Positions 4,347 through 47,690 of a stretch of 64,000 nt of DNA are shown in pieces. The stretch is from Burkholderiales bacterium. GTDB lineage: Bacteria > Pseudomonadota > Gammaproteobacteria > Burkholderiales > Burkholderiaceae_C. Position numbers and translations under genes: made by a program. Location of the stretch: positions 1 through 64,000 of the forward strand of contig CANGHK010000029.1 of assembly GCA_947453625.1 (NCBI GenBank), read 5' to 3'. Below the pieces are notes generated by a model, which was given only the letters and a program-made list of their open reading frames with translations, was not told the DNA's origin and searched no databases. The number at the start of each line of letters is the position of its first letter. Position 1 is the stretch's first letter.

Positions 4347-5618
4347 TCAGCGGATGAGCGCGCCGTAGACCAGATCCTGCATCTGCTCGCGGTAATACTT
4401 GCGCAACTCGCCCGGCGCCGCCGTGCCGAATGCCACCACGAGTTGTTCCTTCGGGTCGGCGAAAAAACCCGTGCCGTTGGCGCCGTTCCAACTGAATTCA
4501 CCGGCATTGCCGGGCACGGCAGCCAGCCCCGGTTGTACGCGCACCGCCACGCCCAGTCCGAAGCCGTAGCCGTCACGGTGCGGCTCCACATTGGCCACCA
4601 GATTCTGTATGCCCGCACCCAGGTGGTTGCTGGTCATCAGTTGCACGAAAGCCGGGCTGAGCACTTGCGCGTTGTCCAGACTGCCACCGTTGAGCAGCAT
4701 CTGCCCGAAGCGGATGTAGTCGCCGATGCTGCCGAAGGCACAGGCGCCGGCGCAGTCGAAGGTGGGCGGCTTGTCAATGGCGGCGATGGCTTGCGGCTTG
4801 CCGTCCAGCGGGTTGTTCGCAAAGGGCCTGGCCACGCGGGCACGCTGGGCGTCGCTCAGGCGGAACGTGGTGTCGTTCATCTTCAGCGGCTTCCACACCG
4901 TCTCGGACAAATGCTCGCCCAGGGTCTTGCCGGCGATCTTTTCAACCACCGCGCCGAGCACGTCGAAAGACAGGCCGTATTCGAAGACCGTGCCCGGTTG
5001 GTAGACCAGTGGCAGCTTGGCAACCGCGTTCGCGAACTCGCTGGACGTTCCCATGTACTGGGCCGCGCCACCGCTTGGCCATAGCGCGGCGATGGCGCTG
5101 CTGCCGTCGGGCCGGCCGCCATAGGTCAAGCCCGACGTGTGGCGGAACAGATCGTGGATGCGTATGGGCCGCTTCTGCGGCTCGGTGGTGAACTTGCCGT
5201 CGGCCGTGGGCACGCCCACCGGCATGGTCCCGAATGCCGGGAAGTAGTCGGCAAGTTTGCTTTGCAGTGGCAACTTGCCCTGCTCGGTCAGCGCCAGCGC
5301 GCCGACCGCAGCCTGGATCTTGGTCATCGACGCGAGTTGGAACAGGTTGTCGGTGGACATGGCCGTGCCCTTGGCCGCGTCCGCGAAACCGAAAGCCTTG
5401 AAGTAGGCCAGCTTGCCGTTGCGTGCAATGGCCACCACCGCACCGGGCACTCGCTTGCGCTCGATCTCGCTGCTGAAGAAGGCGTCGATGTTTTGCAAGC
5501 GCTGACTGGAAACGCCCACGCTTTCCGGGCCCGCGGTGGGCAGGGGCTGCGTCAGCGCTGGGCCGGCGAGCGTGAGGGTGGTGGCCAGCGTGACCAGGAT
5601 CTTGTGGTGCTGCATCGT
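4347..5618 (-). CDS. Serine hydrolase / beta-lactamase (class C-like) family protein, secreted
   Basis: Signal peptide MQHHKILVTLATTLTLAGPALT; QLASMTKIQAAV SxxK motif; FRHTSGLTYGG. Confidence 0.88.
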   Translation of the reverse strand, partial: TMQHHKILVTLATTLTLAGPALTQPLPTAGPESVGVSSQRLQNIDAFFSSEIERKRVPGAVVAIARNGKLAYFKAFGFADAAKGTAMSTDNLFQLASMTKIQAAVGALALTEQGKLPLQSKLADYFPAFGTMPVGVPTADGKFTTEPQKRPIRIHDLFRHTSGLTYGGRPDGSSAIAALWPSGGAAQYMGTSSEFANAVAKLPLVYQPGTVFEYGLSFDVLGAVVEKIAGKTLGEHLSETVWKPLKMNDTTFRLSDAQRARVARPFANNPLDGKPQAIAAIDKPPTFDCAGACAFGSIGDYIRFGQMLLNGGSLDNAQVLSPAFVQLMTSNHLGAGIQNLVANVEPHRDGYGFGLGVAVRVQPGLAAVPGNAGEFSWNGANGTGFFADPKEQLVVAFGTAAPGELRKYYREQMQDLVYGALIR

Positions 5619-5705
5619 TGTCTCCAGCGCGGTTCTATGGCTTCCATGGGCAGCGCGATTCAGCCCTCGATGTCGGGTCGCCGCCAGACGGCGGCCTTGG
5701 GGCAC

Positions 5706-6428
5706 TCAGTGCCCGCCGCCCAGGTACGCGGCCTTGACTGCCGGGTCGTCGCGCAGTTGCGTCGCCGGCCCGTGCAGCGAGATGCGGCCGTTCTCCAGCA
5801 CATAACCGTAGTCGGCCACCGCCAGCGCGGCGGCGGCGAACTGCTCGACCAGCAGCATCGTCACGCCCTCGCTCTTGAGCCTGGCGATGATGCGGAACAC
5901 TTCCTCGACCAGGATGGGCGCCAGGCCCATTGACGGCTCGTCGAGCAGCACGACCTCGGGGTTGAGCATGGTGGCGCGTGCCATCGCCAGCATTTGCTGC
6001 TCGCCGCCCGACAGCGTGCCGGCCAGTTGCAGCCGGCGCTCCTTCAGGCGCGGGAACAGTTCCATCGCGCGCTGCAGGTCGGCCTCGACATCGCCCTTGG
6101 GCCTTGCGCCGGTGTAGCGCGGGAAGGCGCCCAGCCGCAGGTTGTCGGTCACCGTCATGGTGGCGAAGACGCGTCGGCCCTCGGGCGAATGCGCCAGCCC
6201 GAGACGGGCGATGTGGTAGCTCTCCAGCCCGGCGATGCCACGGCCGTTGAGCGCGATTTCGCCAGCGGTCGGCGCAATCATCCCGGAGATCGCGCGCATC
6301 GTGGTGGTCTTGCCGGCGCCGTTCGAGCCTATCAGCGTGACCACCTTGCCGCGCGGCACTTCCATCGAGATGCCGTGCAGCACTTCGATCTTGCCGTAGC
6401 CGGCGTGCAGGTTGTTGATTGTCAACAT
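5706..6428 (-). CDS. livF: Branched-chain amino-acid ABC transporter ATP-binding protein LivF
   Basis: GSNGAGKTTT Walker A, LSGGEQQMLAMARA signature, LLDEPSMGLAP. Confidence 0.93.
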   Translation of the reverse strand: MLTINNLHAGYGKIEVLHGISMEVPRGKVVTLIGSNGAGKTTTMRAISGMIAPTAGEIALNGRGIAGLESYHIARLGLAHSPEGRRVFATMTVTDNLRLGAFPRYTGARPKGDVEADLQRAMELFPRLKERRLQLAGTLSGGEQQMLAMARATMLNPEVVLLDEPSMGLAPILVEEVFRIIARLKSEGVTMLLVEQFAAAALAVADYGYVLENGRISLHGPATQLRDDPAVKAAYLGGGH

Positions 6429-6451
6429 CGCATTTTTCCTCAAGCCCGTCC

Positions 6452-8428
6452 TCAAGCAGCCGCTGGGGCGCCGACCTGGCCGCCCACGGCCAAGTCCTCG
6501 CCGGCCTGGCCTCCCAGGTAGGCCTCGATCACCTTCGGGTCGGCCTGCACTGCCGCCGGTTTGCCCTCGGCGATCTTCTGGCCGAAATCGAGCACCGAGA
6601 CGGTGTCGCAGACCGACATCACCACGTCCATGTGGTGCTCGATCAGGATCAGCGTGATGCCGTGTTCGCGGATCTTGCCGATGATCGCCACCAATTCCTT
6701 GATGTCGGGCGCGGTCAGTCCGGCCGCCGGCTCGTCGAGCAGCAGCAACTGCGGGTCCAACGCCAGCGCGCGGGCGATCTCGAGCAGGCGCTGCTTGCCG
6801 TAGGGCAGGTTGCGCGCCTCCTCGTGCGACAGGTCGGCCAGGCCGACGAACTGCAGCAGGCCCAGCGCGCGGGCGGTGGCGTCACCATCCTCGCGGCGGT
6901 AGCGCGGCGTGTGCAGCGCGACATCGACCAGGTTGCTGGCAAAGCTGTGGTGCAGGCCGACCATCACGTTCTGCAGCGCCGTCATCTCGCCGAACAGTTG
7001 CACGTTCTGGAAGGTGCGGGCGATGCCCGACAGCGCGATGTCCGACGAGGTGCGCCCGACCACCGAGCGCCCGGCAAAGCTGATCTGGCCGGCAGTCGGC
7101 AAGTAGATGCCGGTCAGCACGTTCATCATCGTGCTCTTGCCCGAGCCGTTGGGGCCGATCAGGCCATGCACCGTGCCGCGCCGCACCGTCAGGTCGACGT
7201 CGTTGAGCGCCTTCAGACCGCCGAACTGCATCAGCACGTTGCGCGCGGTCAGCAATTCGTCGCTGGCCTGCGTACCTGCTTTGGCATTGACCAGCGCGTC
7301 GCCGCGCAGCGGCGCAACACTGGCGGCGTCGAACTGCTCGCCCTTGTCCTTCAGATTGAGCGCGTTGCGCAAGAAGCCGATGATGCCGTCCTGCAGGTAG
7401 TAGACGACGAACAGCGTGATCAGTCCGAAGATCGACAGCCGCCAGTCGGTCATGGTCTGCAGCACGAAGGACACGCCGGCCAGCGCAATGCTGCCGACCA
7501 CCGGGATAGCGGCCGAGCGGGCGCTGGTCTTGCCGCGCTGCACCGCAACCGCTGCCCCGACCGTCACCAGCACGGCAATGGCGACCGCTACGCTGCGGAA
7601 CAGTTGCAGGTCATCGAGCAGCTTGGGCAGCAGCACGATGATGGTCGCGCCCAGCAGCGCGCCGCTGCGGGTCTTGCGCCCGCCCATGATGATGGCCAGC
7701 AGGAACAGCACCGTCAGTTCGAAGTTGTAGGTGTTGGGCGAGATGTATTGCTCGCTGTAGGCATACAAGCCGCCCGCCAGCCCGGCCAGACCGGCGCTGA
7801 TCACGAAGGCGTAGACCTTGTAGCGGTAGACGCTGACGCCCATGCAGTCGGAGGCCACCGGGCTGCCGCGCAGCGCCTCGAAGGCCCGGCCCAGGTGCGA
7901 GCGCAGGATGCGGTGCACGACGACCAGCGACAGCACCAGCATCGCCAGCACCACCCAGTAGAACTCGCGCTCGCCGAGCTTGGTGCCGAACAGCATGGGC
8001 TTGGCCAGCTTGATGCCGAGCGGGCCTTCGGTCAGAAAGGTCATCTCGTTGATCAGGATCTGGATGATCGTGCCGAAGGCCAGCGTGACCATCGCCAGGT
8101 AGGGCCCGGTCACGCGCAGCGCGGGCAGCGCCAGCAGTGCGCCGAAGCCGGCGGTGACCGCGATCGCTGCCGGCAGCGTGGCCCAGAGCGGGAAGCCGAG
8201 CTTGACCACCAGAACGCCGGCGGTGTACGAGCCTATGCCGAACAACCCGGCATGGCCGAGCGAGACCTGGCCGGTGTAGCCGACCACGATGTCCAGGCCG
8301 AACAGCACGATCGCGTAGATCATGATGGTCTCGACCAGGTGGATGTAGTAGGGGTTGTGCACCGCCATCGGCAGCAGGCCGACGAGCGCAAACCCGATGA
8401 TGGATATGAGGACGATGCGGCGGTTCAT
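6452..8428 (-). CDS. Branched-chain amino-acid ABC transporter permease/ATP-binding fusion (LivM-LivG)
   Basis: N-terminal LivM-type permease (GYTGQVSLGHAGLFGIGSYT) continuous with a LivG ATPase (GPNGSGKSTMMNVLTG ... LLLDEPAAGL) in one ORF. Confidence 0.92.
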   Translation of the reverse strand: MNRRIVLISIIGFALVGLLPMAVHNPYYIHLVETIMIYAIVLFGLDIVVGYTGQVSLGHAGLFGIGSYTAGVLVVKLGFPLWATLPAAIAVTAGFGALLALPALRVTGPYLAMVTLAFGTIIQILINEMTFLTEGPLGIKLAKPMLFGTKLGEREFYWVVLAMLVLSLVVVHRILRSHLGRAFEALRGSPVASDCMGVSVYRYKVYAFVISAGLAGLAGGLYAYSEQYISPNTYNFELTVLFLLAIIMGGRKTRSGALLGATIIVLLPKLLDDLQLFRSVAVAIAVLVTVGAAVAVQRGKTSARSAAIPVVGSIALAGVSFVLQTMTDWRLSIFGLITLFVVYYLQDGIIGFLRNALNLKDKGEQFDAASVAPLRGDALVNAKAGTQASDELLTARNVLMQFGGLKALNDVDLTVRRGTVHGLIGPNGSGKSTMMNVLTGIYLPTAGQISFAGRSVVGRTSSDIALSGIARTFQNVQLFGEMTALQNVMVGLHHSFASNLVDVALHTPRYRREDGDATARALGLLQFVGLADLSHEEARNLPYGKQRLLEIARALALDPQLLLLDEPAAGLTAPDIKELVAIIGKIREHGITLILIEHHMDVVMSVCDTVSVLDFGQKIAEGKPAAVQADPKVIEAYLGGQAGEDLAVGGQVGAPAAA

Positions 8429-43954: not shown

Positions 43955-43996
43955 ACGTCACATCGTTGTCATCAAATCAGCATCGTGCTGTCACAT
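43955..43996 (+). promoter_or_regulatory. Candidate Pho box array upstream of the TonB receptor
   Basis: GTCA at 43957, 43968 and 43990, plus degenerate AGCA at 43979: four units at exact 11-bp phase; AT-rich TAAATA at 44001. Confidence 0.5.
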
Positions 43997-44052
43997 GGGG
44001 TAAATAAACTTTTTGCATGGTTTATCCCAATAGCTCAGTGCAAAGCCCCGCC

Positions 44053-46278
44053 ATGACACCTCCCTTCAAGACCTCGACCCTCGCCCGCGGCATAGCCTTC
44101 GGCTGGACCGCCCTCGCGCTCGGCGCACCGGCGCTGGCCGCCGATGCAGACACGGCGCAGACCATCACGATCAGTGCCAAGTCTGGCGCCTACCTGAAGG
44201 ACAAGGACTCGGCCTCGGCGGTCGCGCCCACCCAGTCCAGCCTGCAGGCGACCCAGCCGCAATCGATCATCACGCGCGAGTTCATCGAGCAGTCGGTCGC
44301 ACCCACCGCCGAGTACAGCCGGGTCGTCAACATCGCCCCCAGCCTGTCTGGCGATTCGGCCAACGGCCCCGGGCTGAGCGAGACCAAGACGACGCTGCGC
44401 GGCTTCAGCGACGACCAGTACAACATCACCTTCGACGGCATCCCCTGGGGCGATACCAACAACCCGGCCCACCATTCGACCTCGTTCTTCCCGGCCTCGG
44501 TGATCGGTGCGGCGGTGGTCGAGCGCGGCCCGGGCAACGCCAGCAACCTGGGTTTCGCCACCTTCGGCGGCTCGATCAACCTGTTTTCCAAGAAGCCTGG
44601 CGCCGAGCGCGACATCAGCGTCTTCGGCTCGCTGGGCAACTGGAACACCCGGCTCGTCGGCGTCGCGGTCGAGAGCGGCCGGCAGGCCGAACTGGGCAAT
44701 GGCACGCTGCAGTTCAACCTGCAGCACCTGGAGTCCGACGGCTACATGTCGCTGAGCGCGATCCGGAGTGACAACCTGACCGTCAAGCTCGAGCGCCCGG
44801 TGGGCTCGGACTCGACCCTGACGCTGCTGGCCTCGGTCAACCGCATCCACTATGTGCAGCCCGACAACAGCAAGGGCCCGACGCTGGCCCAGGTCGCCCT
44901 GCATGGCAAGAACTACCTGCTCAACAACGACCCGACCAGCTTCAACTACGCCGGCTTCAACCACACCGACAAGGACACCGACTTCGAGTACGCGCGGCTG
45001 CGCACCGACTGGGGCCAGGGTCTGAATACCGAGGCCAAGGTCTACACCTACGCCTACAACAACCAGACCATTTCGTCGACCGACCCGACCGGCAAAACCG
45101 CGCCCGGCACCAAGGTCGCGGTCAATGGCGTGACGGTCGCCAAGGCCAGCGACATCCCGGGCATAGACAAGCAGAACAAGTACCGCGTCTACGGCGGCAT
45201 GTTCCAGGCCGAGAAGCAAGTCTCCGCCGGTTTGCTGCGCGCCGGACTGTGGGTCGAGCACTCGGACACCGACCGCCACCAGTACGACCTGGACCTGACG
45301 CTGGGCAATGTCCCCAACCTGGTTGAAAAGACGGCGCCGCTGGCCGTCAAGTTCGACCAGAAGTCGAATATCGACTCGCTCCAGCCCTATGCCGAATTCG
45401 AGTGGACGCCCTTGTCGGGCACGACGCTCACCCCCGGCATCAAGCAGGTCGAGATCAAGCGCTCGGTCGACGCCACCGTCAACCAGACCACGCGCACGCC
45501 GCTGAACACGTCGGTCAGCTACCACAGCACGCTGCCCTTCCTGACGGTCAACCAGCAACTTGGCCAGGGCCTGGCGGCCTATGCGCAGTACGCCAAGGGT
45601 TTCCAGATCCCCGACCTGAACACCCTCTACATCGCCGACCCGACAAAGAACAGCAGCGAGCCGCAGACCTCGACCAATTATCAGGTCGGCATCGTCGGCC
45701 AGTCCAAGGCCTTGACCTGGGACGTCGACCTCTACCAGATCGACTTCAAGAACAAGCTGGTCTCCAACGGCCTGGGCGGCACGGCCGCGGCCTATGTCAA
45801 CATCGGCGGCGCGACCTACAAGGGCATCGAAGGCCAGGCCACCTATGCGCTTGGCGGCGGCTTCGCGGTCTATGCCAACGCCTCGGTCAACAAGGCCACC
45901 GCGCTCGACACCGGCAAGCAGATTTCCGGTGCTCCCGAGATGACCGCCGCGCTGGGCGCGCTGTACAACGCCGGGCCCTGGGGCGCGTCGCTGATCGCCA
46001 AGCGCACCGGTGCGGCCTACCAGCAGGAATACAGCGCCAGCGCCCCGGCCGACTACGAGGCTTACAAGGTGCAGGCCTATGACAACGTCGACCTGGGCCT
46101 GTCCTACACCTTGCGCGGCGTGCCGGCGATCGGCGCCAAGTCGCTCAAGCTGCAGGTCAATGTGTTCAACCTGCTGAACCGCCAGAACGTCACCGCGATC
46201 AGCGGTACCGGGACCTACGCGCAGTACACCTATCAGGCCCCGCGCAGCCTGCAACTGTCGGCCAAGGCCAGCTTCTGA
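44053..46278 (+). CDS. TonB-dependent outer-membrane receptor
   Basis: Signal peptide; plug TTLRGFSDDQYNITFDGIPWGD...VERGPGNASNLGFATFGGSINLFSKKPG; C-terminal aromatic QLSAKASF. Alternative in-frame ATG at 44017. Confidence 0.93.
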   Translation: MTPPFKTSTLARGIAFGWTALALGAPALAADADTAQTITISAKSGAYLKDKDSASAVAPTQSSLQATQPQSIITREFIEQSVAPTAEYSRVVNIAPSLSGDSANGPGLSETKTTLRGFSDDQYNITFDGIPWGDTNNPAHHSTSFFPASVIGAAVVERGPGNASNLGFATFGGSINLFSKKPGAERDISVFGSLGNWNTRLVGVAVESGRQAELGNGTLQFNLQHLESDGYMSLSAIRSDNLTVKLERPVGSDSTLTLLASVNRIHYVQPDNSKGPTLAQVALHGKNYLLNNDPTSFNYAGFNHTDKDTDFEYARLRTDWGQGLNTEAKVYTYAYNNQTISSTDPTGKTAPGTKVAVNGVTVAKASDIPGIDKQNKYRVYGGMFQAEKQVSAGLLRAGLWVEHSDTDRHQYDLDLTLGNVPNLVEKTAPLAVKFDQKSNIDSLQPYAEFEWTPLSGTTLTPGIKQVEIKRSVDATVNQTTRTPLNTSVSYHSTLPFLTVNQQLGQGLAAYAQYAKGFQIPDLNTLYIADPTKNSSEPQTSTNYQVGIVGQSKALTWDVDLYQIDFKNKLVSNGLGGTAAAYVNIGGATYKGIEGQATYALGGGFAVYANASVNKATALDTGKQISGAPEMTAALGALYNAGPWGASLIAKRTGAAYQQEYSASAPADYEAYKVQAYDNVDLGLSYTLRGVPAIGAKSLKLQVNVFNLLNRQNVTAISGTGTYAQYTYQAPRSLQLSAKASF

Positions 46279-46286
46279 GCAATGCC

Positions 46287-47690
46287 ATGACGCTGCCGCG
46301 CGCGCCGCGTTGCAGCGCCTGGCTGGGCGCGCTTCTGCTGCTGGCGCTGGCGGGCTGCGCGCCCGCCCGCCTGGCCGTCGATGCCGCGCCGCGCCAGGCC
46401 TGGGTGCAGGCGGCGTCGGATGGCCGCTGGGTGGTGCGGGCGCTGACCGAGTCCGGCAGTTGCCCCGTCCTGCGCTGGCAGAGTGGCGAGCAGGCCATGC
46501 AGCAGGCGATGCAACTCCGCGCTGCACCGGCCGTCATCGCGCCGCGACCAGGCTCAGCCCAAGCCGAGGCCAAGCCCTCGGTCTTTGCGCTGCGCAGCTG
46601 CGAGGCCAGCCTGCCCGCTGGCGCGCAAGGGCTGCAGGTCGGCGGCGTGGTCGTGCCGGCGCCGGCCGCCGAGATCCGCCGCATCGTGCTGATCGCCGAC
46701 ACCGGCTGCCGCCTCAAGCAGTCCGAGCAGGCCTTCCAGGACTGCAACGACCCGGCGCGCTGGCCCTTCGCCGCGATTGCCGCCAGCGCGGCGGCCAGGA
46801 AGCCCGACCTGGTGATCCACCTGGGCGACCTTCATTACCGCGAAAGCCCCTGCCCCGCCGGCCGTCCCGGTTGTGCCGGCAGCCCCTGGGGCTATGGCGA
46901 CGACGCCTGGGAGGCCGATTTCTTTCGGCCCGCCGCGCCCTTGCTGGCGGCCGCGCCCTGGCTGTTCGTGCGCGGCAACCATGAGTCCTGCGGCCGCGCC
47001 GGTGCCGGCTGGATGCGCATGCTGGACGCCCACCCCTGGACGCCGTCGCGCGCCTGCCAGGACCCGGCGGGCGACGCCGAGGGTGATTTCAGCCCGCCTC
47101 ATGCGGTGCCGCTGACGGCCGACAGCCAGTTCATCGTCTTCGACTCGGCGTTTGCGGCGGGCAAGCCTTACCGCGGCGACGACCCGGTGGCCAGGCGCTA
47201 TGCCGCGCAACTGCTGCAGGTGCAGCAGCTGGCCGCCGCCAAACCGCACAGCCTGTTTCTCAACCACCACCCGGTGCTGGGCTTCGGCGGAAGCGCCAGC
47301 GGCGCGCCCAAGCCCGGCAACGCCGGCTTGCAGTCGGTGATGGCTGCGGCCCACCCGGCGCGGCTGTTTGCCGACGGCATCGACTTGGTGCTGAGCGGCC
47401 ATGTGCACCTGTTCGAGGCGCTGGGATTCTCCAGCGGCCACCCGGGCGCGGTGGTGCTGGGCAATGGCGGTTCGGCGATGGAGGGCTTTGTCGACGAGGC
47501 CGCGGCGCTGCGGGCCCAACCCGCTCCCGGCGCCGTGGTGCAGTCTTTCGCCAGCCACCCGGGCTTCGGTTTCGCCACCCTGGACCGCGACGGCCAGGCC
47601 TGGCAGCTCAGCGCCTGGAGCGTGGCGGGCCAGTTGCTGCGGCGCTGCACGCTGCAGGGGCCGACTATCACCTGCGAAGCGGCGCCCTGA
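46287..47690 (+). CDS. Metallophosphoesterase, exported
   Basis: VLIADTGCR, HLGDLHYR, VRGNHESC, LNHHPVLGF, LSGHVHLFE calcineurin-like motifs. Confidence 0.9.
   Translation: MTLPRAPRCSAWLGALLLLALAGCAPARLAVDAAPRQAWVQAASDGRWVVRALTESGSCPVLRWQSGEQAMQQAMQLRAAPAVIAPRPGSAQAEAKPSVFALRSCEASLPAGAQGLQVGGVVVPAPAAEIRRIVLIADTGCRLKQSEQAFQDCNDPARWPFAAIAASAAARKPDLVIHLGDLHYRESPCPAGRPGCAGSPWGYGDDAWEADFFRPAAPLLAAAPWLFVRGNHESCGRAGAGWMRMLDAHPWTPSRACQDPAGDAEGDFSPPHAVPLTADSQFIVFDSAFAAGKPYRGDDPVARRYAAQLLQVQQLAAAKPHSLFLNHHPVLGFGGSASGAPKPGNAGLQSVMAAAHPARLFADGIDLVLSGHVHLFEALGFSSGHPGAVVLGNGGSAMEGFVDEAAALRAQPAPGAVVQSFASHPGFGFATLDRDGQAWQLSAWSVAGQLLRRCTLQGPTITCEAAP

Follow-up and report, generated by a model that had tools for sequence, protein, structure and literature searches.

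Tandem GTCA repeats lie ahead of a gene for a TonB-dependent receptor, which is followed by a gene for an exported phosphoesterase, and this arrangement raises the question of whether the locus is a phosphate-starvation unit and what its receptor would import. The locus belongs to a 64,000-nucleotide stretch of a Burkholderiales genome that was analysed as a whole and is called the window here. We propose that the two genes probably form a PhoB-controlled operon for the use of an organic phosphate source.

The promoter at 43955–44010 and the phosphate regulon of the genome

The four repeats start at 43957, 43968, 43979 and 43990, that is, in an 11-bp phase, and re-reading of the window sequence left them with the coordinates and letters that the original prediction had given, including the degenerate state of the third one. 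On the forward strand they form two putative PhoB boxes. Box 1 (43955–43972) consists of the half-sites ACGTCAC and TTGTCAT spaced by 11 bp, and box 2 (43977–43994), which keeps the 11-bp phase with box 1, of the degenerate TCAGCAT and the strong CTGTCAC (43988–43994). The TAAATA at 44001–44006, initially pointed out after the array, appeared to lie four bases too early for a −10 element. We prefer TAAACT at 44005–44010, because it is then located 10 nt past the last half-site, as in the pstS promoters of the same genome and its relatives; the own pstS promoter (TTGTCAT, 10 nt, TAGAGT) has the same geometry. Transcription would be expected to start near 44017. A generic sigma-70 scan did not report the array promoter, as expected, because a Pho box takes the place of the −35.

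The exact pattern GTCA-N7-GTCA-N18-GTCA occurs once in the 64 kb window, and only 0.16 places were expected in shuffles with one mismatch permitted. For scoring, we used a matrix of 34 columns trained on the pstS promoters from 25 other Burkholderiales genomes, with the window locus and its own genome left out of the training; the left-out own pstS promoter was regained with 40.1 bits. On both strands of the window, the best 18-mer for the pstS-trained matrix was that at 43955 (19.2 bits, next 9.5), and the best box-plus-(−10) place for all 34 columns was that at 43977 (22.8 bits, next 8.9). Both criteria, the 18-bp box and the box plus −10, have their best places inside the array, so that the weight-matrix check proposed with the original prediction ranked it first in the 64 kb. 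When 119 million positions were simulated with an order-3 model of the window, none scored 22.8 bits or more, and the 18-mer score of 19.2 bits was reached 30 times. A plain consensus count overlooked most of the boxes detected by the matrix.

As in promoters of the PhoB regulon, direct 7-mers at 11 bp occupy the −35 position before a −10. The array resembles the PhoB-dependent pstS promoter in its CTGTCAT-type half-sites at 11 bp, the last one 10 nt before a TANANT −10, but it has two tandem boxes (four half-sites, one degenerate) and TAAACT where the pstS promoter has one box and TAGAGT. The genome encodes PhoB (NCBIfam TIGR02154, 331 bits, cut-off 296), PhoR (TIGR02966, 382 bits, cut-off 334), PstS and, beside pstS, PstB above its NCBIfam cut-off. 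Sampled by pattern only, the genome-wide Pho regulon gave 14 places with the box-plus-(−10) pattern versus 4 for a reversed control pattern, and the genes behind the 14 include those for PstS, polyphosphate kinase, a PhoD-like phosphatase, a second TonB receptor and the window receptor. The genome has 16 other TonB receptors; the upstream region scored above 12 for only two of them (12.2 and 16.1), and none of the 16 had a phosphoesterase of the linked types within the fetched flanks.

The locus of the second Pho-box TonB receptor (L159, in G000:C19 of the same genome; 2624–4777 on the reverse strand and 5023–7738 on the forward strand) has an M20 peptidase-like gene downstream. Its opposite-strand box faces two genes, one for a small lipoprotein and one for an exported protein of 715 aa that has a PHP-type GDFHNHTTCSDG motif and no Pfam match.

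The receptor and the phosphatase

The first gene (44053–46278, forward strand) encodes a TonB-dependent receptor of 741 aa, counted from the ATG at 44053; an in-frame ATG at 44017 is less likely to be the start, because it has the same position as the expected transcription start. The plug and beta-barrel domains typical of such receptors are both above the Pfam cut-off (PF00593, E 2e-40; PF07715, E 8e-9), and no match to an N-terminal signalling domain was found in the protein. The siderophore, heme and B12 receptor families were rejected, as their matches were weak and far below the cut-offs (120.9 bits against 223.5 for the siderophore-receptor model TIGR01783), and no curated subfamily exceeded its cut-off. 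A profile search gave PqqU and FecA as solved relatives, and a single-sequence search of the PDB returned nothing useful. The structure model of the receptor, based on nine sequences only (mean pLDDT 55), was too poor for structure comparison.

The second gene (46287–47690, forward strand) follows after a gap of 8 bp, which agrees with the earlier claim that the receptor immediately precedes an exported metallophosphoesterase. Its product is a 467-aa purple-acid-phosphatase-like (PAP-like) protein with a domain of the calcineurin type (PF00149, E 3e-13). The segment 46287–46358 encodes a lipoprotein signal peptide that ends in the lipobox LAGC (Cys24), with Ala at +2; most relatives of the enzyme have a lipobox as well, and the remainder have ordinary signal peptides. 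The five PAP motifs (DxG, GDxxY, GNH[DE], xxxH and GHxH; here D138-x-G140, GD181xxY184, GN231HE, H328 and GH372xH374) are invariant across 22 aligned sequences, as are the GDxxY tyrosine and ten cysteines.

As neither a single-sequence search of the PDB, which gave no significant match, nor a profile search placed the enzyme, we compared folds. The best PDB matches of its AlphaFold2 model (pLDDT 90) were purple acid phosphatases (E 2e-13): 17 of the best 18 were purple acid phosphatases or phytase, among them wheat purple acid phytase, and one was PhoD, with an identity of 12–18% in the best solved matches. The term PAP-like is a statement on predicted fold and motifs. The protein shares the fold and all five motifs with known purple acid phosphatases (1xzw, 3zk4 and the wheat phytase 6gja), but differs from them in being a bacterial lipoprotein, and its identity to PAP structures is only 14–18%.

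Linkage and Pho boxes at homologous loci

When 84,980 species genomes were searched with the enzyme, 23 loci were obtained, in 9 of which a receptor was near the enzyme, in tandem, in reversed tandem, divergent or one gene apart. To avoid the bias of an enzyme-led search, we also searched 250 genomes of the order with the receptor only, and 27 stretches were fetched. A phosphoesterase of one of three probed types was within about 5 kb in 12 of them, or in 13 when L186 is counted. In the 14-row receptor clade of the window, 6 of the 7 receptor-led stretches contained a probed phosphoesterase, and the seventh is on a 5-kb contig; at many of the more distant receptors, no probed phosphoesterase was nearby. 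Genes for exbB, exbD or tonB adjoin the receptor in 16 of the 27 receptor-led stretches, and in four (L162, L168, L169 and L173) the receptor, exbB, exbD, tonB and a phosphatase form a single gene run. The two genes are linked at no fewer than 20 other loci, among which both the gene order and the type of phosphoesterase vary, and this speaks for the functional pairing that the original prediction had assumed. The receptor of L186 (879–9189), which diverges most from the others in the set, is flanked by three genes matching the PF04185 phosphoesterase family.

The partner enzymes are of the PAP-like type, a second metallophosphoesterase type or the type I phosphodiesterase type, and the enzyme label changes 10 times on the receptor tree, with loci without a visible enzyme counted too. 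The two closest receptors to that of the window (about 68–70% identical) belong to L026, which has a PAP-like enzyme one gene away, and to L160, which has a different metallophosphoesterase directly downstream. Because enzyme types differ between such close receptors, what stays constant is the receptor together with some enzyme that cleaves phosphate esters. The same tandem pair is present on a Novosphingobium megaplasmid, with about 42% identity in each protein, and this copy suggests that the pair may move as a unit. In loci of the Pelomonas/Roseateles type (L027, L028, L030, L031 and L034), the PAP-like gene has neither a receptor nor a Pho box in the stretches covered, so the enzyme presumably works without the receptor as well.

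Upstream regions scored above the 99th percentile of their own shuffles for 24 of 36 receptors and for 9 of 28 PAP-like enzymes. L032 (Undibacterium) and L040 repeat the layout seen in the window, in which the second of two boxes lies 22 bp after the first and is followed by a −10, and the divergent loci L021 and L025 have one box per direction. No box was found at the Novosphingobium pair by the pstS-trained matrix. The original description of the array as Pho-box-like is borne out by the independent matrix, the −10 spacing, the presence of PhoB, PhoR, PstB and PstS, and the boxes before most homologous receptors. On these sequence grounds, the predicted control of the receptor–phosphatase unit by PhoB is well supported.

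Two further kinds of neighbour were observed at these loci. In L020 (8092–9832), a receptor and PAP-like pair is adjoined by a gene for a PhoD phosphatase, which has a Pho-box-like promoter of its own. In L162, L164, L165, L181 and L205, the receptor loci adjoin a response regulator and histidine kinase pair, which is possibly the local regulator where a Pho box was not seen.

Proposed function, alternatives and known systems

The promoter, the operon layout, the fold class with its motifs and the conserved linkage can be read from the DNA and its predicted products. In the mechanism that we propose, PhoR would phosphorylate PhoB at low phosphate, and PhoB dimers would bind the two boxes and bring RNA polymerase to the −10, substituting for a −35. 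A single transcript would then yield the receptor and an outer-membrane lipoprotein phosphatase. The receptor would take up a phosphate ester whose size or charge keeps it from passing through porins, the lipoprotein, with its PAP fold and dimetal site, would remove the phosphate, and PstSCAB would import it. PhoB binding, the direction and substrate of transport, the activity of the enzyme and the face of the outer membrane on which it acts are the steps that we infer. More generally, we lean towards the view that the receptor is a member of a proteobacterial subfamily dedicated to the import of phosphoesters. Under the control of PhoB, receptors of this type, often with an ExbB–ExbD–TonB motor of their own, would be combined with exported phosphoesterases that can replace one another. 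Such a modular system would be to organic phosphorus what polysaccharide utilisation loci are to polysaccharides.

The main rival to organophosphate uptake is metal import. The receptor would then be co-regulated with the phosphatase but carry no organophosphate; it would bring in iron or another metal needed in phosphate starvation, for example as a chelate, to load the phosphatase site or to replace phosphate-bound iron. Purple acid phosphatases use iron, which counts in favour of this explanation, as do the solved relatives PqqU and FecA and the nearest annotated models, those of siderophore and B12 receptors, even if these matches are far under the cut-off. We nevertheless consider it unlikely. 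Iron control was rejected, as no Fur-like site stood above shuffles (best match 9/19), and so was control by a riboswitch or B12, as Rfam gave no match between 43700 and 48000; no siderophore gene was found among the window neighbours examined. Moreover, the partner enzyme switches among three phosphoesterase types while the receptor stays, and because the enzymes are exchanged around a constant receptor, the property common to the partners is the cleavage of phosphate esters, not one metal.

Slightly less probable again is that the enzyme is exposed at the cell surface and cleaves large phosphate polymers or esters there, with the receptor importing the smaller product. A lipobox with Ala at +2 is an outer-membrane-type signal (for the Asp retention rule, see PMC2996285), and in Caulobacter the surface lipoprotein ElpS, which is produced when phosphate is scarce, is encoded beside a TonB receptor (PMC2996285). 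Yet several relatives of the enzyme have plain signal peptides without a lipid anchor, and a TonB receptor should be unnecessary for free phosphate. It is very improbable that the array arose by chance or is a repeat of some unrelated kind, and that phosphate does not regulate the genes. One of the four half-sites is degenerate, as such an origin would allow, but the boxes conserved across homologous loci contradict it, and we rejected it on the matrix rank, the shuffle expectation and the simulation.

The proposed organophosphate uptake by the window receptor has parallels in several known systems. In Flavobacterium, PusCD genes for SusCD-type uptake at low phosphate are located beside phosphomonoesterases and phosphodiesterases, and the enzymes vary by locus (PMC8115612). 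Low-phosphate, TonB-dependent outer-membrane uptake with phosphatases differing per locus is common to both. The Flavobacterium systems are, however, SusC/SusD pairs of Bacteroidetes, whereas here a single receptor of Burkholderiales is combined with a PAP-like lipoprotein and, in related loci, often with exbB–exbD–tonB. No SusD-like gene lies between or beside the pair, the neighbours of which encode a 2-hydroxyacid dehydrogenase and a response regulator. The unit is thus similar to the Flavobacterium phosphate utilisation systems, yet it is built from different proteins.

The PhoB regulon of Caulobacter includes TonB receptors, for which the uptake of alternative phosphate donors was proposed (PMC11208175). 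Likened by description, Caulobacter ElpS, a lipoprotein linked to phosphatase activity in phosphate starvation and encoded beside the TonB receptor CC0171 (PMC2996285), is similar to the window pair; ElpS was linked to type II secretion and CC0171 was reported to be constitutive, both unlike that pair. In the available part of the report on Citromicrobium (PMC3400609), a TonB receptor is beside a phytase, and organophosphate import is likewise deduced from gene context; unlike here, the host is an alphaproteobacterium, the enzyme is a phytase, and that part of the report presents no promoter evidence. In Sphingobium, an exported organophosphate-cleaving enzyme works with Ton components (PMC7142613), and the likeness, drawn from its description, is limited by that enzyme being an inner-membrane phosphotriesterase, unlike the window enzyme. 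We found no description in the open-access literature searched of this receptor subfamily with exchangeable phosphoesterases.

How large or charged organophosphates pass the outer membrane of Gram-negative bacteria outside Bacteroidetes is poorly known. The module described here supplies a specific receptor subfamily, specific enzymes and a clear signal, low phosphate, and homologous loci are present in the cultured Undibacterium sp. Jales W-56 and Novosphingobium pentaromativorans US6-1. With the receptor subfamily, the enzymes, the signal and cultured hosts in hand, the question of organophosphate import becomes testable.
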